Notes: generated by a model from the sequence alone, not told the origin. A stretch of DNA of 64,000 nucleotides from Pseudomonas sp. 8Z (GCF_902506535.1 NZ_LR733824.1:124001-188000), one strand, 5' to 3'; shown: positions 6,104-47,309, counted from the first letter of the stretch. Numbers and translations are program-made.

Positions 6104-7264
6104 ATGACCGTTTTGAAGATGACCGACCTCGACCTCGCCGGTAAGCGCGTGTTGATCCGCGAAGACCTCAACGTCCCGGTGAAGGACGGTGTGGTCAAGA
6201 GCGACGCACGTATCCTCGCCGCGCTGCCGACCATCAAGCTGGCGCTGGAAAAAGGCGCTGCCGTGCTGGTCTGCTCGCATCTGGGTCGTCCGGAAGAGGG
6301 CATCTACAGCGAGCAAGACAGCCTGGCCCCGGTCGCTGCTTACCTGAGCAAGGCGCTGGGTCGCGAAGTGCCGCTGGTCAAGGATTACCTGGGCGGCGTC
6401 GAAGTCGCTGCTGGTGAACTGGTGCTGCTGGAGAACGTGCGCTTCAACAAGGGCGAGAAGAAGAACACCGACGAGCTGGCGCAGCAGTACGCAGGGCTGT
6501 GCGATGTGTTCGTCATGGACGCTTTCGGCACTGCGCATCGCGCTCAGGGTTCGACCCATGGCGTGGCCAAGTTCGCCAAGGTTGCTTGCGCCGGCCCGCT
6601 GCTGGCGGCCGAGCTGGACGCCCTGGGCAAGGCGCTGGATAAGCCCAATCGGCCGATGGCGGCCATCGTTGCTGGCTCCAAGGTGTCGACCAAGCTCGAC
6701 GTGCTCAACTCCCTGGCCGAGATTTGCGACTCGCTGATCGTCGGTGGCGGTATCGCCAATACCTTCCTGGCCGCTGCTGGCCTGCCGGTGGGCAAGTCGC
6801 TGTATGAAGCCGATCTGGTCGACACCGCCAAGGCCATCGCGGCCAAGGTCGCCGTGCCGCTGCCGGTGGACGTGGTAGTGGCCAAGGCGTTTGCCGAGGA
6901 CGCCGAAGCCACTGTCAAGGCCGTCGCTGACGTGGCCGAAGACGACATGATCCTCGACATCGGCCCGCAAACCGCCGCGCAATTCGCCGAAATGCTCAAG
7001 GCCTCGCAGACCATTCTGTGGAACGGCCCGGTGGGCGTGTTCGAGTTCGATCAGTTCGGCAATGGCACCAAGGCGCTGGCTCTGGCCATCGCCGAAAGCC
7101 CGGCGTTCTCCATCGCTGGCGGTGGCGACACCCTGGCGGCCATCGATAAATACGGTGTGGCGGAGAAAATCTCCTACATTTCCACCGGTGGCGGCGCGTT
7201 CCTCGAATTTGTCGAAGGCAAGGTACTGCCGGCGGTCGAGGTGCTGGAGCAGCGCGCCAAGTGA
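6104..7264 (+). CDS. pgk: Phosphoglycerate kinase
   Basis: The product is 386 aa, typical for bacterial Pgk. Visible motifs include the N-terminal [16 protein letters not shown] (about residues 59-63) for the triose substrate, and the C-terminal GGGDTLAAI (about 338-346) for the nucleotide. It interconverts 1,3-bisphosphoglycerate and 3-phosphoglycerate with ATP formation. It sits directly after epd and upstream of fba, with two small lipoprotein genes in between. Confidence 0.97.
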
Positions 7265-7365
7265 CGGCTATGAGGCGAAGGATGTGCCGTCCTTTGCCTG
7301 CGCATTAAACCCTGGCGTGATCGAGTGGTCTGTTGAGACTGAACCCTCGAACAAGGAGTCATGTC

Positions 7366-7551
7366 ATGGGCAAGCTAGCTGCGTTGGGATGTATCGCGCT
7401 GGTGCTTACCGGCTGCGCCGGTGGTGGTCACGAATCGGCCTGCGAGGTGCTCAGCCCCGCGACGATCGAGGTGCCGACCACGCAGAACGACCAGAGTATC
7501 GAGCAAAACAGCGGCCAGCCGTTGGGTGAGCCGGTAGAGCAGCGTTGCTGA
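7366..7551 (+). CDS. Small predicted lipoprotein, function unknown
   Basis: The ATG at 7366 is chosen because AAGGAG lies 7 nt upstream and it starts a proper lipoprotein signal, MGKLAALGCIALVLTGCAGG. A longer frame from 7333 lacks these features. The lipobox is LTGC with the modified cysteine near residue 16. The mature part is only about 45 polar residues with two further cysteines. It lies between pgk and the MliC-like gene, 12 bp before the latter. I do not recognise a family. Confidence 0.75.
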   Translation: MGKLAALGCIALVLTGCAGGGHESACEVLSPATIEVPTTQNDQSIEQNSGQPLGEPVEQRC

Positions 7552-7563
7552 CGAGGGTGCAAG

Positions 7564-7887
7564 ATGATCGTAAGACTGGCGGGCATGACCGCCATGGCGC
7601 TGTTGTTGGGCGCTTGTAGCCAGCAACAGACAGCGCCTGAACAGTGGACGCATTGGGTCTGTGACAGTAAAGCCGAGGTGCTCTGGCGCCAGGCCGATGG
7701 CAAGGGTGAACAGGTGGATATACGCCTGGGCAGTGATGATGTCGTTCACCGCCTAACCCTGGAGCCGGCTGGTTCTGGTGCGTTGTACAGCGACGGTAAC
7801 CTGTCCTTTCATACCCAGGGTGATGAAGGGCTGGTGTACTGGACGGCCACCGATGATCTGATTGGTCGTGGCTGCAAGGCACCGTAA
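7564..7887 (+). CDS. MliC-like lysozyme-inhibitor lipoprotein
   Basis: The 107-aa product opens with a lipoprotein signal (lipobox LGACS, Cys near residue 19). The mature part resembles the MliC/PliC fold: an early WVCDSKAEVLW strand, then GSGALYSDGNLSFHTQGDEG and a final cysteine near GRGC, which likely pairs with the early one. MliC proteins are outer-membrane lipoproteins that block host c-type lysozyme. Assignment is from pattern resemblance; other small lipoproteins could share it. It is probably co-expressed with the preceding lipoprotein. Confidence 0.65.
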   Translation: MIVRLAGMTAMALLLGACSQQQTAPEQWTHWVCDSKAEVLWRQADGKGEQVDIRLGSDDVVHRLTLEPAGSGALYSDGNLSFHTQGDEGLVYWTATDDLIGRGCKAP

Positions 7888-7952
7888 TACCCTCGGCGAT
7901 GCCGAGATATGAGTCGAGGGCATAGCTCTCGGCCAGACGAAACTTGAACAAC

Positions 7953-7971
7953 GCCTGCCCCTGCGGCAGGC
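7953..7971. other. Short GC-rich hairpin upstream of fba
   Basis: GCCTGCC (7953-7959) pairs with GGCAGGC (7965-7971) around a 5-nt loop. It lies 38 bp before the fba start and no T-run follows. It may affect the fba leader or stabilise the upstream transcript. Confidence 0.35.
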
Positions 7972-8008
7972 TTGCACATTAAACAACCCATATCGGGAGC
8001 TTCAAAAG

Positions 8009-37022: not shown

Positions 37023-38457
37023 GGGACGTTTCCCCTTCGAACGATATTCTGTCGGCGCTGCTACGGCTGGGCACGAATCATCGGTGCACAAAGCAGTAGC
37101 GGCAGGCCTCTGATACCTGTGTGGGTGTGCTGAGATTCGAGGTTGGCGAGCGTTCCGCTGCGCTGGCAGATGTCGGCATTCGTGCACATACGCCAACACG
37201 CTGGCTGGCGCTGCTGCAGCCTGTCGCGCCGTTGCTTTGTGTCGGTGAGTGATCGTTGCCTTGCCGTGCTGCAAACCGCTTTCCAAAACCTCTGGCAGTG
37301 TTTCGAACCCAGTCCCTTGGGGGTTCATGTTCCGTCCTGGAACATGCGTACATCCGAAATTTCTTATTGGGCTGGTGCCCGAATGTGGGTGAACCAGCGC
37401 TTATCTGTTCTTCGGTCTGGGGTTGTGGGCCCCAGTCTGCCGCTTCTCCATGAGAGTCGGCAGCGACGTCATCGGCTGACTCAACGATATAGCCTTGGAG
37501 TCTACGCAATTGTCGATTTACGACTCTGACGTGCTGGGCGACGACATAGCGCTTGTTCGCTGCATGCGCCTTTTTATGCCCCCGTTATCAGACCGTCGAA
37601 ATGTTGCGATAAGTACCTCGCTGCACGAGATTCTGAATGGGGTAACTGGTACATGCCTTTAAAACCTTAACAGACTTTTTTACCCCCAGGTCAAATCTGG
37701 AGGCCGCACACAGCGTGGATCTCGCTCTGTTCGTCGGCCTGCAGGCACCGTCTCATGGGGGCTGCGTCCGTGTTGAAAAAAATTGACAGTGGCGTCTCGA
37801 AAAAGGTCATGTTCTCGCTTTGCGGATAGCTGACCAATTCTCGGCAGGTTGCTTGTCCATGGAGGGCTTACTGCTACGGTGGGTGTTGGCTGAAATGGTT
37901 TTTTGTTGCGGTTTAGTGATTTTTAGCTGTTTTTCTGTGCTTTTCGGTTTTGTGGTTCTGGGATTTTGCACGCGTCACCTTGCTTCAGCTTCCGGTTGTT
38001 TTAGGGGGCAGGTGGCAATGGGGATGCAAGTGGCGGTCCGTTGGTTTGGGGCGGCGCTGTGCCAGCGGTCTTGACATGAGCATTTGAATTTTGGTCTGAG
38101 GTGGGGCGAGAAAGGCTTTTTTGCCAGTTTTTGGTGCATTCAGATGTTGCCGTCATGGTTCGGTTGCAAAGGGTGTTACCGCGCAACCGTTACTGCCGCT
38201 GATTGGCCATGATGAGGCCGCATGCTGCGGTGCTACCGAAATGCACAGAACTTCCAGATTTTAGGCGTTTGCACAGGGCTATCCTGGGCCGCCGAGAGCC
38301 AAATTAGGGCGTGCCGTGCGTTTGTTGAATGTTCGATCAATTTAGGCATGGGCTTTGCGTAATATCTGTGACTAGCTGGTCTCGAATCAGCGCCATAACA
38401 AAACCGCGACCCGTTCACCGTCGGGTCGGTACCGTGCTTAGCGTGAGGGCTTCACCA
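37023..38457. other. 1.4-kb divergent intergenic without supported genes
   Basis: This region lies between the divergent starts of cbcV and gbdR. Several frames of 60-143 codons exist, but none has a plausible ribosome-binding site or protein-like composition. GC is lower around 37.6-38.1 kb, with T-rich tracts near 37.9 kb. It contains the BetI-like site at 38325-38340. It may hold regulatory RNA, long leaders or a decayed gene. Confidence 0.5.
38325..38340. promoter_or_regulatory. Possible BetI-like site upstream of gbdR
   Basis: TTGAATGTTCGATCAA keeps the TTGA-N8-TCAA frame of the betB and betI sites, but its core is less palindromic (5 of 8 pairs). It lies 118 bp before the gbdR start. 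A chance match is possible. Confidence 0.35.
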
Positions 38458-39619: not shown

Positions 39620-41056
39620 CTAAACCGGTCGTTCAGGCTGCGCCAGCAAAGCACACTCCCCCAATACTCGTAGACCCTTGGCCAACCCTGGAGAAAGTGG
39701 CCTGCCCAGGCATAATCTTAGGCCCGTAGTGGGCTGACCATCAGCGAAGAAGATGCCGCTGCTCGCAATATGGCAGCCCTGCTGATGTGCCAATTGTTGC
39801 AGCATGGCCATGTCGGTACCCATTGGTAATTCCAGCCAGTGGATGAACCCTCCACATGGCGGTACGTAAAGCGTGCCTGGCGGGAATGACGAATTCACCA
39901 GTGCTCGCATCACTTCGCTCGTGGTGGCCAGTTGTTCGCGTAACCGAGCGCAGTGTTCTTCCATGTACCCACGGCCGATGAACTCGTTCAGCGTGCTTTG
40001 TGCGAGGCTCGATACCGCCAGGTTGCGCGAAAACATCTGTGCGAGGATAGCGTCGCGGTACTTACCGGCCACGCACCAGCCCACCCGGAAGCCCGGGGCG
40101 ACGGTCTTGGAGAACGATGAGCAGTAGATGGTCTGCCCGGTGCTGTCATAGCTCTTGAGCGCGCGTGGCCGCTCGGTTTCCGGCACCAGGTCGAAGAAGA
40201 TGTCGTCCTCGATGGTCGGTACATCGGCCTCGCCGGCCAGTTGCGAGAGCCTGGCGCGGGCTGCCTCGGGCATGATGAAGCCGCGCGGGTTCTGCAGGGT
40301 CGGGTTGAGGAAGATCACATCTACTTTTTTAAGCTTCAGCGCCTCTTCGAGGTGGTCCATGTCGATCCCGGTTTCCCCGTGGGTGCGCATGGGCAGCGCA
40401 CGCATTCCCAGGCGCTCGATGGTCTGCAGGATTCCGTAGTAGGTGGGGGTTTCGATGGCCACCGTGGCGCCGCGCTGGGCCACGGCCTCCAGGGCCAGTT
40501 CCAGGGCGACGGTATCGCCGGAGGTCACCAGCACTTCGTCCGGGCCGCAGATCACGCCCCGGGTCAGCATCAGCCCGGCAATGCGCCGGCGCAGCGCCGC
40601 ATGCCCAGGTGGCGTCACCAGCCCGGCGATGGCCAGGTCGGCCTTGTTGGCCAGTGTGGTCATGCACTTGTTGAGCAGCACGTGGGGGGTGAGGTCGTCA
40701 TGCAGCACGGCTGAGCTCAGCGACAGGGTGGTGCGGCTGGCCGCCTGGGAGAGCATGGCGACCACCGCGTGGTTGACGTTGACCGTGACGCTGGAGAAGT
40801 TGAAATGGCTGGCTGGGTTGGCGCGCCCCGCCGCCGACACGAAGTAGCCAACCCGCGGCTCGGTCAGCACATAGGCGTTGGCTTCGAGGTCGGCCAGCGC
40901 CCGCTGTACGGTGGTGATGCTGGTGTCGAACAGGCGGGCCAGGGTGCGGATCGACGGCAGCTTGGTTCGCGCCGGCCATTCACCGCTGTCGATCTGGCGG
41001 ATGATCCAGTCATTGACTATCCGCCAGCGTTTATCAGGTGTTTCGAACCGATCCAT
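39620..41056 (-). CDS. MocR-type PLP-dependent regulator (GntR/aminotransferase fusion)
   Basis: The ATG at 41056 (AGAGG upstream) starts MDRFETPDKRW and gives 478 aa; an earlier start at 41122 would overlap the permease. Residues 10-75 are a GntR winged helix (KLPSIRTLARLFDTSITTVQRALADLE), and residues about 110-470 an aminotransferase class I fold. The PLP lysine lies in SSFSKTVAPGFRVGW. MocR regulators sense amino acids or amines through PLP. It is the last gene of the SbnA/SbnB operon (16 bp after the permease), so it may sense the pathway product. Confidence 0.9.
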   Translation of the reverse strand: MDRFETPDKRWRIVNDWIIRQIDSGEWPARTKLPSIRTLARLFDTSITTVQRALADLEANAYVLTEPRVGYFVSAAGRANPASHFNFSSVTVNVNHAVVAMLSQAASRTTLSLSSAVLHDDLTPHVLLNKCMTTLANKADLAIAGLVTPPGHAALRRRIAGLMLTRGVICGPDEVLVTSGDTVALELALEAVAQRGATVAIETPTYYGILQTIERLGMRALPMRTHGETGIDMDHLEEALKLKKVDVIFLNPTLQNPRGFIMPEAARARLSQLAGEADVPTIEDDIFFDLVPETERPRALKSYDSTGQTIYCSSFSKTVAPGFRVGWCVAGKYRDAILAQMFSRNLAVSSLAQSTLNEFIGRGYMEEHCARLREQLATTSEVMRALVNSSFPPGTLYVPPCGGFIHWLELPMGTDMAMLQQLAHQQGCHIASSGIFFADGQPTTGLRLCLGRPLSPGLAKGLRVLGECALLAQPERPV

Positions 41057-41072
41057 GGTGCCTCTTGTCAGC

Positions 41073-42509
41073 TCAGGAATTACCTCCCAGAACATAAAGT
41101 AAAACCACCCCGGTTGCAGCAACGATGGCGATGTTCAGCGCCACCAGGCCGAAGGCGAAGCGGATCAGCCCGTGCTCTTCATCGCGGTTGGCGGCCGCCA
41201 GCCCGGTGATCAGCGACAGGATCGACAGCGAGCCCAGCGCACCATGCCCGGCGGCGCTGTTGACCATCGCCGCCAGCCACGGCCCGTAGTCACTGCCCAG
41301 GGCGGCGATCGACGGCATCACCAGGGTGTTGCCGCCCACGTTGGAGCCGGTGACGTAGCCCGCGATACCCGCCAGCAGCGCCACGATCGGCGCCAGCGAA
41401 ATCCCCGACAGCGATTGCAGGGCGCGCTGCGCCTCGACCAGAAAGCCCGCGTTGACCATCACCTGCGACAGCAGCAGGAACAGGAAGATGGTCGCCACCG
41501 GAAACTTGGCGCGCTTGAACAGCGAGGCCCACGGGAAGCTGCCGTCGGCGCGTTGGCGCAGGGTCATCAGCACGGTGACGATCAGCAGCGCCAGCCCCGG
41601 CGAGGCCAGCGGCTTCCACGACACATGCTCGCCCTTGATCACCCACACACCATCCCAGCCCGACAATACGAACAGTGCGCGCGAGGCGACGATCACCCCC
41701 AGCAGCGCCAGGTACGGCCAGGCCGCCGCCGGCCAGCGTACCAGGCGCTTGCGCTGCAGGTACGAAATCACCAGGCCCACGGCGGCCACGGTCAGCCCCG
41801 CCAGCACCCCCGATACCTCAGGCCCGACAAAGCGGTTGATGCCGTACAGCACCGCGCTGAACAGCACCGATACCGCACACAAGCCCAGCCACGGCAGGGT
41901 GCTGCGAATGCCGGTCAGCCACAGGGCGATGCCCGCCAGCACCAGGAACACCGGCGCGCTGATCAGCGCCGAATGGCTGCCCAGCTCGTTGGCCGGCAGA
42001 TGGGTGAGCAAGCCGCCGATCACCGTGGCCAGGCCCAGGGTGCCCCACGGCATGATGACCATGCCAGCCAGGGCGATCTTCATCCCGGCCTGACGCGAAA
42101 ACAGCCCCATCAGCAGCGGCACGGTGGCGATCAGCGAGACGCCGAAGCCGGTCATCGCTTCCAGCAGCGGCGCCAACCCCAGCACGATGAAGATCACCTG
42201 CGCCGGTGGCTTCCAACCCAGCTCGCGCACCCAGGCTCCGATCGCCTGAGGCGCGCCGCCGCGCTCCACCAGGATGACGAAGGCCAGCCCCGGCACGATC
42301 ACACAGGCGGTGCTGAGGAACAGGATCATTGTGTCCTTGATGATCGCCGAGCTGGCGGCGGCCGACAGCGGCGCCGCGGCGCCCATGCCCCACAGCAGGA
42401 AGACCACCGCGACGCCGACCAGCGCTGCCTGAACGGGGGGGCGACGCACCAGCAGGATCAGGGCGATCACCAGGCCGATGGGCGACATTTGCAACAAGAG
42501 AGCAGCCAT
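41073..42509 (-). CDS. LctP-family permease (lactate-permease-like)
   Basis: The 478-aa membrane protein has about 12 segments and LctP blocks such as LLEAMTGFGVSLIATVPLL and GSNVGGNTLVMPSIAALG. Classical LctP carries L-lactate or glycolate with protons and is about 550 aa, so this is a shorter relative. Within the L-Dap operon it may carry a substrate or the product rather than lactate; direction unknown. It follows the GST gene by 12 bp. Confidence 0.85.
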   Translation of the reverse strand: MAALLLQMSPIGLVIALILLVRRPPVQAALVGVAVVFLLWGMGAAAPLSAAASSAIIKDTMILFLSTACVIVPGLAFVILVERGGAPQAIGAWVRELGWKPPAQVIFIVLGLAPLLEAMTGFGVSLIATVPLLMGLFSRQAGMKIALAGMVIMPWGTLGLATVIGGLLTHLPANELGSHSALISAPVFLVLAGIALWLTGIRSTLPWLGLCAVSVLFSAVLYGINRFVGPEVSGVLAGLTVAAVGLVISYLQRKRLVRWPAAAWPYLALLGVIVASRALFVLSGWDGVWVIKGEHVSWKPLASPGLALLIVTVLMTLRQRADGSFPWASLFKRAKFPVATIFLFLLLSQVMVNAGFLVEAQRALQSLSGISLAPIVALLAGIAGYVTGSNVGGNTLVMPSIAALGSDYGPWLAAMVNSAAGHGALGSLSILSLITGLAAANRDEEHGLIRFAFGLVALNIAIVAATGVVLLYVLGGNS

Positions 42510-42521
42510 GTGCTGTGTTCC

Positions 42522-43136
42522 TTAATCGTGGGTCTGACCGCTGTACTCGGTGGCGCGCATCGAGGGGCGGTCGCAGAAACGCTGGTACCAGGCGTTCAGG
42601 CGCGGGTGCTGGGAGAAGTCCGAGAGCTCGCGGAACACGATCCAGTCCAGGGCGGTGCCCAGTGCCACGTGGCCGACGTTCAGCGGGCCGTCGAGGTCGA
42701 CCTGCTGTTCGAGGTAGCGATACGACTCTTCAAGCTTGTACTTCTGGCCCTCGCCATAGGCCGGGTAGCGCAGGTGCGCCGGGCGGCGCTCGACTTCCCA
42801 GCGCAGCTTGATGCCGACATCGCACAGGCCCTGGGCCAGCGCCTGCAGGCGCAGGGCCTGGTAGCGCTCGGGGCCTTGGGCCGGGATCAGCTTTGCGCCT
42901 TGGTGCAAGGTGTCGAGGTAGTCGCAGATCACGATCGAGTCGAACAGCGCCTCGCCCTCGGGCAGTATCAGCACCGGCACCTTGCCCAGCGGGTTGGCCT
43001 GGTAGATGGTCTCGTTGCGGGTGGTGGGGCTGGTCTCGTGGTGGATCACCTGCAGGCGCTCGGCGAGCCCGAGCTCATGGGCCATCACCAGCACCTTGCG
43101 GGCGTAGGGCGAGTGGGTCTGGTAGTAGAGCTTCAT
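42522..43136 (-). CDS. Glutathione S-transferase family protein in the SbnA/SbnB cluster
   Basis: The ATG at 43136 gives 204 aa; its start overlaps the stop of the FAD protein by 4 bp (ATGA), so translation is coupled. The thioredoxin-like domain starts MKLYYQTHSPYARKVLVMA and has NPLGKVPVLILPEGEALFDSI with the cis-proline. Ser9-Pro-Tyr is at the usual active-site position. Within a biosynthetic operon it may conjugate, isomerise or deglutathionylate an intermediate, or protect against a reactive product. Confidence 0.87.
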   Translation of the reverse strand: MKLYYQTHSPYARKVLVMAHELGLAERLQVIHHETSPTTRNETIYQANPLGKVPVLILPEGEALFDSIVICDYLDTLHQGAKLIPAQGPERYQALRLQALAQGLCDVGIKLRWEVERRPAHLRYPAYGEGQKYKLEESYRYLEQQVDLDGPLNVGHVALGTALDWIVFRELSDFSQHPRLNAWYQRFCDRPSMRATEYSGQTHD

Positions 43137-44923
43137 GGGGCGGTCCCTGTGTCGAGGATGGCCGAGGCGGCCTTGTGGGCGTCGATGAACAGCCGCGACG
43201 GCGCGCCTGCCGAGGTGACGTAGTGGTTGTAGTAGCACGAGCCTTCGGCCAGCGGCCCGAGAACCCAGAGGTTGCGCACGGGTTCGCCGCTGCTGGCGCG
43301 CGGGTGGCAGGCAGCGTCGACATCGATGCCATCCAGGCCCGGCAAATCGGTGCGCGGGCGGATCAGACCAAGCCGCGCCAGGTCGCGCACCGGGGCGCAG
43401 TCGCTTTCGTGCACGCCACTGCCCTGCACGTAACCGGCCACGCGCTGGTAAGGCTTGGCGGCTGGCACGGCGCCCGGCTGCAGGAAGGTCAGCAGCCCGG
43501 CGTCGCAGAGGGCCAGTAGGTCGGCGTGGCGCTCCTTCTGCGGCCCGGCCACCAGGCGGTTGATCGCCTTGTGCCAGCGGCCGTAGAACTGCCGGTGCGA
43601 AGTCTCGGTGAGGCCGTCGAAGTCGACCGCCTCGCGCAGCCGGTCACGTAGGTCGCGCCACACCTCGATGGCCGCCTTGACCGGCGACTCGGCGCGGCCG
43701 ATGCGGGCCTCGTGCAGGTCGGCCTCGATGGCGTCGTAGATCCACGCATGGTAGTTGTGCACGCTCACCTGCGCCGGCAGGCTGTGCAGGATCAGCGCCT
43801 GCGGATCAATGGCGCCGGACAGCGCCTCGTAATGGCGCAGCAGGCCCTCGCTTTCGCGGGTGTCGGTGGGCGTTTGTAGGCTGACGGTGCGCAGTTGCTC
43901 CAGCACTTCACGGTGGCGCGCTGGGTCGGTCTTGGCGTGTAGCACCGCCACGCCGGCCGCGCGCATTTCCAGCAGCATGCGCGGCAGCACGTCACGCTCG
44001 AAGTCCAGCTGACCGTTCGGCGCTTGCTGGCGCAGCGCATCGATATGGGTGCTGGTGAGGAAGATCGGCTTGTGCCGTGGCGCCCGGGTCAGGCCATTGG
44101 GGCGCGCGCGGAACGGCAGGCCGTCACGCGACTGGATATAGATCACCGGCTCCCTGCCGGAGGGGAAGTACACATGGCTGGCATCGGCCATGCGGTGGTA
44201 GGCGCCACCGCGGCCAGCGGTCAGCGCCGCCAGGGTATCCATCGCCCCCAGGCCCAGCCCTTCGAGCAGCACGGCTTCGCCGGCGGCGATGCTGTCGAGA
44301 CTGCCCGGCAGCGGGTAGATATCGCCCACCCGGCCTTCCTCGTCAGCGCGCACCCGCCCGGTGTGGCCGACGGTCAGGATCAGCCGGTCCACGGTCACGC
44401 TGTCGCCCGACGGCAGCTTGAGCTGGTAGGCCTGCTGCGCATCGGTGCGCAGGCCGACCACCGGGTGTGGGTGCAGGCGTACGGCCACCCAGGCGGGTGC
44501 GCTGCTCAGGATGCGCGAGAAGGCGTCGGCCAGGTAGCTGCCGAGCAGCCGGCGCGGGAGGAAGTCCTCCGGCTCCACCGCGCGCCCCTCTTCGGCCACT
44601 AAGCCGGTTTTCGGGTCGACCTTGACCCCCTTGGCCCGGCACCAGTCCAGGAAGTCCGGGCCGGTGCGTTCGCGTGCATCGTGCAGGGTGCCGAAGGCCG
44701 CCGCGTCGGGGTACACCCCGAGTTGCCCGGCCACGGTGTTGAGCAGCAGGTAGTCAGGCTGGTTGGGCCAGTGGGTACCGGTGCCGAACACATTGGGGTC
44801 GAAGATATCGATCACCAGCGGCTGTTGCGGGCGGGTTTCGGCGATGCTCAGCAGGCGCTCGAAGATCGACAGCCCGCGCGAGCCGCAGCCCACCAGGCCG
44901 ATGTGCAGGAGTTTGCTCACCAT
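43133..44923 (-). CDS. Large FAD/NAD(P)-binding protein of the SbnA/SbnB cluster
   Basis: The 596-aa protein begins with a Rossmann motif LVGCGSRG (10-17) followed by IDIFDPNVFGTGTHW. This is the pattern of the FAD/NAD(P)-binding family PF13454, distantly like N-hydroxylating monooxygenases. A second dinucleotide-like region is near LILTVGHTGRVRADEEG (about 185). Length is greater than a typical 430-450-aa N-hydroxylase. The start overlaps sbnB by 7 bp. It may oxidise L-Dap or a derivative; reaction unknown. Confidence 0.78.
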   Translation of the reverse strand: MVSKLLHIGLVGCGSRGLSIFERLLSIAETRPQQPLVIDIFDPNVFGTGTHWPNQPDYLLLNTVAGQLGVYPDAAAFGTLHDARERTGPDFLDWCRAKGVKVDPKTGLVAEEGRAVEPEDFLPRRLLGSYLADAFSRILSSAPAWVAVRLHPHPVVGLRTDAQQAYQLKLPSGDSVTVDRLILTVGHTGRVRADEEGRVGDIYPLPGSLDSIAAGEAVLLEGLGLGAMDTLAALTAGRGGAYHRMADASHVYFPSGREPVIYIQSRDGLPFRARPNGLTRAPRHKPIFLTSTHIDALRQQAPNGQLDFERDVLPRMLLEMRAAGVAVLHAKTDPARHREVLEQLRTVSLQTPTDTRESEGLLRHYEALSGAIDPQALILHSLPAQVSVHNYHAWIYDAIEADLHEARIGRAESPVKAAIEVWRDLRDRLREAVDFDGLTETSHRQFYGRWHKAINRLVAGPQKERHADLLALCDAGLLTFLQPGAVPAAKPYQRVAGYVQGSGVHESDCAPVRDLARLGLIRPRTDLPGLDGIDVDAACHPRASSGEPVRNLWVLGPLAEGSCYYNHYVTSAGAPSRLFIDAHKAASAILDTGTAP

Positions 44924-45948
44924 CTGCGCTCCTCTCCGAAGAACGACGGCACGGCGACTGCCGAGCCTTGTTCGAGGGCGACGTCATGGATACGCCGGCC
45001 CAGAGCCAGATCGAGGATGCCCATGCCGAACGGCGAATAGATCAGTGGCTTGTCACGTTTCACCTGTAGTTCGCCTCGCAGGATCTGCGCCACGGTGCCG
45101 GTGACGAAATCGCGGTGGCCGAAGCGCTGCTCGGCCAGATGCGGCGAAGTGTTGGCCTTGAGGCAGTGGCTGACGTCGTCGAAGTAGTTGTAGCTGGCGG
45201 CGATGATGCCGGCATCGATGTCGCGCAGCGAGATGTTCAGCACGATCTGGCCTGGGCGGAAGGTGTCGTCGCCGCTGACGTACGGGGTGCCGGCGCTGGT
45301 GGCGAACACCACGATATCGGCCTTGAGCGCTTCTTCCAGCGACCACAGTTGCACCTGCGGCAGGCCCAGTTGCTCACCGAAACCGGCCAGTGCCTCGGCC
45401 GACTCGCGGTTGAGGTCATGCACGCCGACCTGGCCGAACGACCAGTCGTCGCCGATGAAGGTATCGAGGATGTTGCGGGCGATTACGCCGCCGCCAATGA
45501 TCGACAGGCTGCCGGCGCGTTTGTGTTGGTCATTGAGCAGCCAGGCGCCCAGCACGGCCGAGGCGGCGGTGCGCACGGCGCTGATCAGCGCGCCTTCGAG
45601 CAGCGCGTAGGGGTAGCCGGTTTGTGGGTCGTTGAGGATCAGTACCGCCGAGGCCCGTGGGATGCCGGCGTGGATGTTGTCCGGGTAGCTGGCGATCCAC
45701 TTGATGCCTGATACCGACTGTTCGCCCTGTTTGTCGACGATCGCCGCCGGCAGGGCAATGATGCGGTTGGCCGGCTCTTCGGGGAAACGCAGGAAGTAGC
45801 TGTCCGGGTTGACGGTTTCGCCGCGCTCGTGGGTGAGGTAGGTCTGCGCGACCACCTCGATGGCCTCCTGGCGCATGCTGGCAAGGATGTCCTTGACGGT
45901 GGCGCCGGGGATCACGTGGAACGGGGATATCGAAGCTTGTGCGGTCAT
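44917..45948 (-). CDS. sbnB: SbnB-like N-(1-amino-1-carboxyethyl)glutamate dehydrogenase
   Basis: The 343-aa protein belongs to the ornithine cyclodeaminase/mu-crystallin family. The NAD motif is IGGGVIARNI (151-160), preceded by SGIKWIASYPDN and GIPRASAVLILNDPQTGYP and followed by ISLRDIDAGII, all matching SbnB. SbnB oxidatively cleaves ACEGA to L-2,3-diaminopropionate and 2-oxoglutarate with NAD+. It follows sbnA by 6 bp, so the pair is co-transcribed. Confidence 0.88.
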   Translation of the reverse strand: MTAQASISPFHVIPGATVKDILASMRQEAIEVVAQTYLTHERGETVNPDSYFLRFPEEPANRIIALPAAIVDKQGEQSVSGIKWIASYPDNIHAGIPRASAVLILNDPQTGYPYALLEGALISAVRTAASAVLGAWLLNDQHKRAGSLSIIGGGVIARNILDTFIGDDWSFGQVGVHDLNRESAEALAGFGEQLGLPQVQLWSLEEALKADIVVFATSAGTPYVSGDDTFRPGQIVLNISLRDIDAGIIAASYNYFDDVSHCLKANTSPHLAEQRFGHRDFVTGTVAQILRGELQVKRDKPLIYSPFGMGILDLALGRRIHDVALEQGSAVAVPSFFGEERRW

Positions 45949-45954
45949 GACTGG

Positions 45955-46929
45955 TTACGCTGTAAGGGAGAGAGGGAATTCGGGGAACAACGGTTGCAGC
46001 GCGTCCGGGCCCAAGCGTTGGCTGATCCAGTCGTCTGAAAAGAGGGTTTCCAGGTAGCGCTCGCCCATGTCCGGGGAGATCGCCACCACCACATCGTCCG
46101 GGCGGATCTGCGCTGCCCACTGCTGCACGCCGGCCAGCACCGTGCCGGTGGAACCACCGAATAGCAGGCCGTAGCGCTGCGCCAGCCAGCGGCACACCTG
46201 CACTGTGCGCACCTCGGGCACGGTGAGAAAGGCATGGATATCGCTGGGCTCATAGATTTCCGGACGGCGGCTGGTGCCCAGGCCCGGGATATGGCGGGTG
46301 CCGCCGGGCAGGCCGAAGGTCACTGAGCCGGCCGAGTCCACTGCGATCACTTTGGTGCGCGGGTGGTGGTCGGCGAAGTAGCGCTTGCAGCCCATCAGCG
46401 TGCCGGTGGTGCCAGCGCCGACGAACAGGTAGTCGACATGCCCGAACTTTTCGGCGATGGCCCGCGCTGTGGCGTTGTAGTGGGCCAGCGGGTTGTTCGG
46501 GTTCTGGTACTGGTTGAGCCAGATGTAGTCAGGGTTCTGCGCGACCATCTGCTCGATCAGGCGGATACGCGAATAGAGGAAACCACCGTTTTCGTCGCGC
46601 TGGTCGACCACGATCACCTGCGCGCCCAGGGTCTGGATCAGCTTGCGGTTGGGCGCCGAAGTGTTGGGGTCGATGACGCAGACGAACTGGTAGCCCTTGG
46701 CTGCGCAGACCATCGCCAGGGCCACGCCGAGGTTGCCCGACGAGGATTCGATCAGCCTCGTTCTGGGCGTGATCAGCCCACGGCTTTCAAGGTCGGCGAT
46801 GATCGCGTGGGCGGTCTTGAGCTTGATGGAGCCGGCCGGGTTCAGGCCCTCGATCTTCAAGTGCACCTTGGCACTGCACAACTGATCGACCTGAACGTAG
46901 TTATTTTCGTTTATTAATTGCTTGATCAC
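45955..46929 (-). CDS. sbnA: SbnA-like PLP-dependent synthase for L-Dap
   Basis: A GTG at 46929 is the start (AAGGA about 9 nt upstream); an ATG at 46933 is out of frame and stops after 10 codons. The 324-aa product is a cysteine-synthase-fold enzyme: PLP lysine in NPAGSIK (Lys36), substrate loop ESSSGNLGVALA (61-72) and phosphate loop GAGTTGTLMG (171-180). SbnA joins O-phospho-L-serine and L-glutamate to ACEGA. The N-terminus is short, without the usual TPL motif. A cystathionine/cysteine synthase role is unlikely given the adjacent sbnB. Confidence 0.87.
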   Translation of the reverse strand: MIKQLINENNYVQVDQLCSAKVHLKIEGLNPAGSIKLKTAHAIIADLESRGLITPRTRLIESSSGNLGVALAMVCAAKGYQFVCVIDPNTSAPNRKLIQTLGAQVIVVDQRDENGGFLYSRIRLIEQMVAQNPDYIWLNQYQNPNNPLAHYNATARAIAEKFGHVDYLFVGAGTTGTLMGCKRYFADHHPRTKVIAVDSAGSVTFGLPGGTRHIPGLGTSRRPEIYEPSDIHAFLTVPEVRTVQVCRWLAQRYGLLFGGSTGTVLAGVQQWAAQIRPDDVVVAISPDMGERYLETLFSDDWISQRLGPDALQPLFPEFPLSLTA

Positions 46930-47284
46930 TCATACGTCCTTGTTAGTTTTTCCGAGCGAAGCGTGCCGTTCGTATCAGTACCGCTGGCTTTGAGTAGCGC
47001 GGTAGCGGGGCTGTGGGTAGTGGGTTTTAAGGTTTTACAAACGCGCTTTTCATCCATGGACAGGATGGTGCTCGTGATGTTTGGGGTTGGCATGCAGGCG
47101 CGCCAGGCGCAACTGGCGTTGCGAGAGCGATGGTGCGGGAACGGGTTGGTGAGGTGACAGATACAGAAAAGCGGGATTTTTCAATACAGGGGCGCAGTCT
47201 TGGCGAGGACTTGGCAAATGGCTGGCCTACAGCCAACCAGACAGGGAACCCTTTTTCATGGGAGTAGGTGCGAGTGTGGCGCCA
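46930..47284. other. Intergenic at the edge of the L-Dap block
   Basis: About 355 bp with no supported gene, upstream of sbnA and beyond the terminator of the dgc/etf operon. It should hold the sbnA promoter, possibly in the AT-richer part around 46.95-47.06 kb. No attachment-site repeat or integrase was seen. Confidence 0.45.
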
Positions 47285-47309
47285 AGAAAAAGCCTCCGTT
47301 AGGAGGCTT
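47285..47309 (-). terminator. Rho-independent terminator of the dgc/etf operon
   Basis: AAGCCTCC (47290-47297) and GGAGGCTT (47302-47309) form a perfect 8-bp stem with a GTTA loop. Read on the minus strand it is followed by a T-run (the As at 47286-47291). It lies 11 bp after the stop of the last operon gene and insulates the sbnA block. Confidence 0.85.

Follow-up and report, generated by a model that had tools for sequence, protein, structure and literature searches.

Why should a pseudomonad carry two genes predicted for L-2,3-diaminopropionate (L-Dap) formation in a free-standing operon, and what would it make of this amino acid? The question is raised by a 64,000-nucleotide stretch of Pseudomonas sp. 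8Z (NZ_LR733824.1:124001-188000; hereafter 'the window'), in which six tightly packed open reading frames, constituting one minus-strand operon that runs from 46929 to 39620, encode SbnA- and SbnB-like proteins, a 596-residue FAD/NAD(P)-binding protein, a glutathione transferase (GST), an LctP-type permease and a MocR-type regulator. An earlier note on this DNA had described six genes on one strand with short gaps or overlaps and had proposed a compact pathway to a modified, possibly N-oxidised L-Dap. The layout is confirmed, with gaps of 6 bp (sbnA-sbnB) and 12 bp (GST-permease) and two 7-bp overlaps (sbnB/FAD gene and FAD gene/GST, where the GST start region covers the FAD stop codon), and the family labels hold in Pfam and NCBIfam, the LctP match being partial and distant only. 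The proposed pathway is the best-supported reading now that the FAD protein can be placed in an N-oxygenase class, and we lean, with moderate confidence, towards a cassette that produces and transports an N-oxidised L-Dap derivative; substrate and product are the parts of the proposal that we infer.

The flavoprotein and its probable L-Dap-forming partners

The protein previously described as FAD/NAD(P)-binding can be named: judged by sequence and predicted fold, it is a member of the FzmM/CreE class of multi-round N-oxygenases. It (i) matches PF13454, (ii) is related to the L-Asp N-hydroxylase of Streptomyces V2 (8cp2) with a phmmer E-value of 9e-45, and (iii) yields an AlphaFold2 model (mean pLDDT 87.5) that exhibits the three-domain fold over its full length, model residues 5-594 matching 8cp5 with Z 35.9 (rmsd 2.8, 553 residues aligned) and the 8cp2 comparison giving Z 35.7 (TM about 0.8 for the 8cp5/8cp2 match); the next family follows at Z 18. 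Mapping the residues of 8cp2, for which roles have been assigned including that of the catalytic Asn62 (PMC10404684), onto the family alignment reveals that R13, N62, R266, R276, R409, R412 and R416 are retained, among them the tested Arg residues of the substrate side. W51, by comparison, is replaced by His, and N413 by Asp in 23 of 23 aligned rows of the window's cassette type ('cassette A'; some genomes are included twice), none of which has the L-Asp-type Asn413. In 8cp2, Asn413 contacts the substrate in the substrate entry chamber, and the exchange N413E abolishes Asp hydroxylation yet leaves NADPH oxidation in place (PMC10404684). The combination of Asp413 and His51 with the retained catalytic residues thus argues for the same oxygen chemistry in an altered substrate pocket, and we read the protein as an enzyme with conserved oxygen chemistry and a changed substrate. 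Other N-oxygenase homologues combine W51 with Ala413 (L075, L078, L080, L081); the one of L075 adjoins an arginine-hydroxylase-like protein, an aminotransferase, an isochorismatase-type hydrolase, a cupin and an aconitase-like protein.

The SbnA and SbnB identities given in the earlier note stand, both proteins scoring above the curated equivalog cut-offs of NCBIfam (SbnA, TIGR03945, 419.5 bits versus 350; SbnB, TIGR03944, 395.1 bits versus 327) and having the S. aureus enzymes as closest relatives in the PDB (SbnA, E 5e-69; SbnB, E 3e-30). By family, SbnA would convert O-phosphoserine and L-Glu to the SbnA adduct, from which SbnB would free L-Dap. Among R132, Y152 and S185, residues named in structural work on SbnA, the window protein retains the first two. 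The position of S185 is occupied by Gly in every row aligned, both of cassette A and of the B clusters introduced below, and the pyridoxal phosphate (PLP)-lysine motif reads KLK instead of KDR, KLK/KMK being common to both cluster types. A siderophore role was rejected, as no IucA/IucC was found in the genome and the only NRPS (nonribosomal peptide synthetase) locus found there lies on another contig; the earlier statement that neither an NRPS nor an NIS (NRPS-independent siderophore) synthetase stands beside the cassette agrees with this.

Distribution of the cassette and recurrence of its core

Two features could not be read from the window: conservation of the cassette as a transferable unit, and the presence of its core in hydrazine-type clusters too. 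All six genes occur in unchanged order at 14 other named Pseudomonas loci, with 71-98% protein identity, including those of P. sichuanensis, P. parasichuanensis, P. mendocina EF27, P. chlororaphis EA105 and P. atagonensis. Its range extends to a dozen Pseudomonas species or more, and a cassette-type FAD gene (at least 71% identity) is present in 12 of 399 sampled Pseudomonas genomes. Values of pN/pS between 0.08 and 0.38 across all six genes indicate purifying selection and, together with the gene order kept at the 14 other loci, argue that the cassette is not a product of chance. The cassettes of P. sichuanensis and P. parasichuanensis are 93-95% identical to that of the window at the nucleotide level from the operator (47192) to near the MocR end, with no flank match beyond the cassette in the DNA compared; in L003, most of the cassette is ∼93-97% identical, the MocR and operator ends are 73-85% identical, and the flanks mostly 73-90%. 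Because blocks of identity end sharply at the cassette borders, the cassette behaves, in these comparisons, as a transferable unit with signs of transfer between species. One of the 14 loci, L008, carries disrupted copies of sbnA and sbnB (6873-8004) alongside FAD, GST, permease and MocR genes that can still be aligned from end to end.

The SbnA-SbnB-FAD module is also present in a second cluster type (B; L025-L027, L055-L072, L092-L094), whose FAD gene (∼35-47% identity) occurs in about 28 of the 399 genomes. There the module is accompanied by a cupin, a MetRS-like protein, a DAO-type oxidase, a Lys/Orn N-hydroxylase and a periplasmic-binding-type protein, and in B1 clusters additionally by LysE, Fe-ADH and a beta-lactamase-family protein (L064 is rearranged). 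Hydrazine formation in s56-p1, azaserine and triacsin is known to involve the set of cupin, MetRS-like protein, DAO and N-hydroxylase, and the por cluster of P. orientalis, for which the product is reported as unknown, is likewise hydrazine-type (PMC11705231); by their gene content, the B clusters can be classed as hydrazine-type as well. SbnA and SbnB are often fused in them, the B1 protein read in L025 (11061-13079) being a single chain of 672 residues with each half above its equivalog cut-off. The FAD proteins of A and B form one clade (support 99/98) in which A, B1 and B2 are each monophyletic, in a tree with long branches and unsure deeper placements. Since the module is kept in two differing cluster types, and SbnA and SbnB are fused in B1, the N-oxygenase appears to be tied to L-Dap formation.

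FAD homologues that lack SbnA/SbnB partners adjoin a nitronate monooxygenase in two unrelated settings (L073, 7969-9276; L128, 7704-8738, and L129), which suggests that this FAD family makes nitro products. The homologue of a further cluster type (C) adjoins a KamA-like aminomutase, a MaiA-type GST and AsnB, and that of L113 a GST of the glutathione (GSH)-disulfide-oxidoreductase type; no such nitronate monooxygenase or GST neighbours accompany the homologues of L114 and L127. In cassette A, cluster C and L113 the N-oxygenase is followed by a GST, each time of another subfamily, and such repeated recruitment suggests that glutathione meets the N-oxidised product. Thiol addition to an oxidised oxime has precedent in glucosinolate and phosphonocystoximate chemistry.

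Three further neighbourhoods may be recorded. Cluster C (L074, L076, L079, L082) comprises a KamA-like radical SAM aminomutase, a lactonase-fold protein and the N-oxygenase homologue, AsnB and the MaiA-type GST being seen in L076 and L079. In another gammaproteobacterium (L115, 7467-10050), an SbnA-like gene (41%) stands beside a remote FAD homologue and a PLP decarboxylase-like gene, and the N-oxygenase homologue of L077 (768-7701) has NRPS genes and an MFS transporter as neighbours.

Proposed pathway and competing explanations

In the pathway that we propose, SbnA would join O-phosphoserine-derived aminoacrylate to L-glutamate and SbnB would then release L-Dap and 2-oxoglutarate, after which the FzmM/CreE-class flavoenzyme would oxidise one amino group of L-Dap using NADPH and O2. 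By analogy, oxidation may proceed in several rounds from hydroxylamine via oxime to nitro, with 3-nitro-L-alanine as the most economical product. The GST would either add glutathione to a reactive N-oxidised intermediate or remove this intermediate for self-protection, so that the protective role envisaged in the earlier note is one option and that of a pathway enzyme the other. The permease would move the product, in a direction that is likewise part of the proposal, and the MocR protein would sense an amino-containing ligand and control the operon via upstream TGTAY repeats. Only tentatively do we suggest that the free-standing product is 3-nitro-L-alanine or its hydroxylamine or oxime; the N-oxygenase would then be specific for L-Dap, the product possibly a nitronate mimic of aspartate directed against competitors, and the GST would act directly on the N-oxidised intermediate, while the module, in the B clusters, would supply a second family of products, these containing a hydrazine.

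Several observations weigh against N-oxidation of L-Dap. FAD homologues that have no SbnA/SbnB partners (cluster C, L073) also carry an acidic residue at position 413; this position is therefore a mark against Asp and not proof of L-Dap, and one B-type FAD protein (L072) does have Asn there. Moreover, SbnA is devoid of S185 and of the usual KDR motif, and sequence cannot tell which nitrogen would be oxidised, nor how far. With an L-Asp N-hydroxylase as the nearest characterised relative, and with an alanosine cluster that pairs L-Dap with CreE/CreD homologues (PMC11705231), the enzyme might instead oxidise L-Asp to nitrosuccinate, 3-nitropropionate or nitrite, L-Dap being a separate partner as in L-alanosine. 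We consider this unlikely: the cassette has no CreD-type lyase, carrier protein, NRPS or cupin, and Asp413 and His51 occur throughout, Asp hydroxylation by 8cp2 being abolished when N413 is exchanged for Glu. The search for a CreD-type nitrosuccinate lyase covered the six cassette products (Pfam/NCBIfam) and found none, a lyase elsewhere in the genome not being sought; the canonical nitrite pathway was rejected, since the cassette is without the lyase.

The divergent KLK/KMK motif and the Gly at S185 in SbnA of both A and B would also be compatible with SbnA/SbnB making another diamine or adduct on which the FAD enzyme acts, for example the SbnA adduct before SbnB, or an L-Dap homologue. Yet both proteins exceed the L-Dap equivalog cut-offs by ∼70 bits and R132 and Y152 are retained, making this quite improbable. 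LctP-type permeases often serve uptake and utilisation pathways, and a GST would suit detoxification. Pathways of this kind are often served by MocR regulators (PMC5320631), and the cassette might thus be catabolic or protective, disposing of a nitro- or amino-compound that the permease would import and MocR would sense as the substrate; that a costly, biosynthetic SbnA/SbnB pair is present, and that biosynthetic clusters of the hydrazine type possess the same module, renders this a very improbable explanation.

For N-oxidised L-Dap, then, the predicted product appears to be an undescribed nitro- or hydroxylamino-amino acid. The earlier note had recognised no described cluster, and no description of the SbnA-SbnB-FAD-GST cassette was found in the literature searched, where coverage is thin for subscription journals and preprints and many journals lie outside it. 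If true, L-Dap would be a new substrate for the small set of multi-round amino-oxidising flavoenzymes, a function would be assigned to a hitherto anonymous Pseudomonas gene family, and an entry point would be gained to the Pseudomonas hydrazine-type clusters that carry the same module.

Locus, regulation and relation to known systems

Table 1. Features of the operon and its upstream region in the window
Feature	Position	Strand	Description
sbnA	45955-46929	minus	SbnA-like PLP synthase
sbnB	44917-45948	minus	SbnB-like NAD-dependent dehydrogenase
FAD gene	43133-44923	minus	596-aa FAD/NADPH N-oxygenase, FzmM/CreE class; predicted substrate L-Dap
GST gene	42522-43139	minus	glutathione transferase, YibF type; start taken as ATG 43139
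Permease gene	41073-42509	minus	LctP-type permease
MocR gene	39620-41122	minus	MocR-type regulator; listed start TTG 41122
Candidate MocR operator/promoter	47156-47189	minus	direct TGTAY boxes, TGTAYTGRAAAA-N8/9-TCTGTATCT, 227 bp upstream of sbnA
Terminator-like hairpin	47290-47309	minus	8-pair stem + T tail; between cassette and upstream etf genes

The operon (Table 1) is bordered upstream by an ETF-beta gene (end 47696; NF051844 above cut-off) and on the other side by a GbdR regulator at 38329 (NF052371 above cut-off), and so looks to lie within a region of glycine-betaine/choline catabolism. Counts in the overall promoter and terminator scan that gave the hairpin were at chance level, and the true start of MocR is probably an ATG near 41053 rather than the listed TTG. 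The GST matches PF13409 (GST_N), scores below the cut-off of NF007682 and has 4ibp as its closest structure (E 3e-36). The permease matches PF02652 (Lactate_perm) only partially (43.5 bits, residues 5-254) and, with 29.1 bits versus 341, fails the TIGR00795 cut-off for LctP lactate permeases, to which it is related only distantly. In a set of 57 related genomes, sequences above 80% identity are confined to cassette carriers, with one 54% homologue elsewhere (L112); as this stands alone and is uninformative, LctP context was dropped as a clue to the substrate.

The regulator comprises both MocR domains, the GntR winged helix-turn-helix (PF00392) and Aminotran_1_2 (PF00155), with PdxR as its best NCBIfam model, below cut-off. 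An operator-like element precedes sbnA in the window and in 14 of the 14 other checked cassette loci with intact sbnA, with the consensus TGTA(C/T)TG(A/G)AAAA-N8/9-TCTGTATCT and minor departures such as CTGTATCT in L003, the direct TGTAY boxes being separated by ∼22-23 bp at every cassette locus examined. For MocR operators, direct TGT-containing repeats spaced by roughly two turns of the helix and placed upstream of the target have been described (PMC5320631), and the TGTAY repeats, with this same spacing, therefore fit the rule; the element is probably a MocR operator/promoter, to which MocR is predicted to bind.

The cassette can be compared with several known systems. With FzmM/CreE (8cp2; PMC10404684) it shares the full-length fold, the FAD and NADPH domains, the helical substrate domain, Asn62 and the Arg cluster, but differs in Asp413 and His51 and in having SbnA/SbnB and a GST as partners instead of a CreD-type lyase. 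With the L-Dap synthase SbnA/SbnB of S. aureus staphyloferrin B formation it shares both enzymes at the equivalog level, whereas it has neither siderophore synthetase nor receptor, and its SbnA exhibits Gly at S185 and KLK, SbnA and SbnB being fused in B1. The L-alanosine cluster (aln/ala; PMC11705231) likewise joins L-Dap with N-oxidation chemistry: there, a flavin-dependent enzyme resembling acyl-CoA dehydrogenases is reported as the likely N-hydroxylase of L-Dap, and CreE/CreD or NOx provide the second nitrogen. From these N-oxidation parts, however, the cassette has a CreE-class protein only, and alanosine-type carrier protein or NRPS parts, CreD and cupin are absent from its six genes (Pfam/NCBIfam). 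Hydrazine synthetase clusters (s56-p1, azaserine, triacsin and, from its published description, por; PMC11705231) resemble the B clusters, the window cassette being without hydrazine machinery. Finally, the oxime-forming N-oxygenase of phosphonocystoximate, PcxL, is grouped with FzmM/CreE although it acts on 2-aminoethylphosphonate and shares 17-22% identity with Asp-type candidates, and it demonstrates that oxidation in the FzmM/CreE/PcxL group may end at the oxime (PMC10404684).

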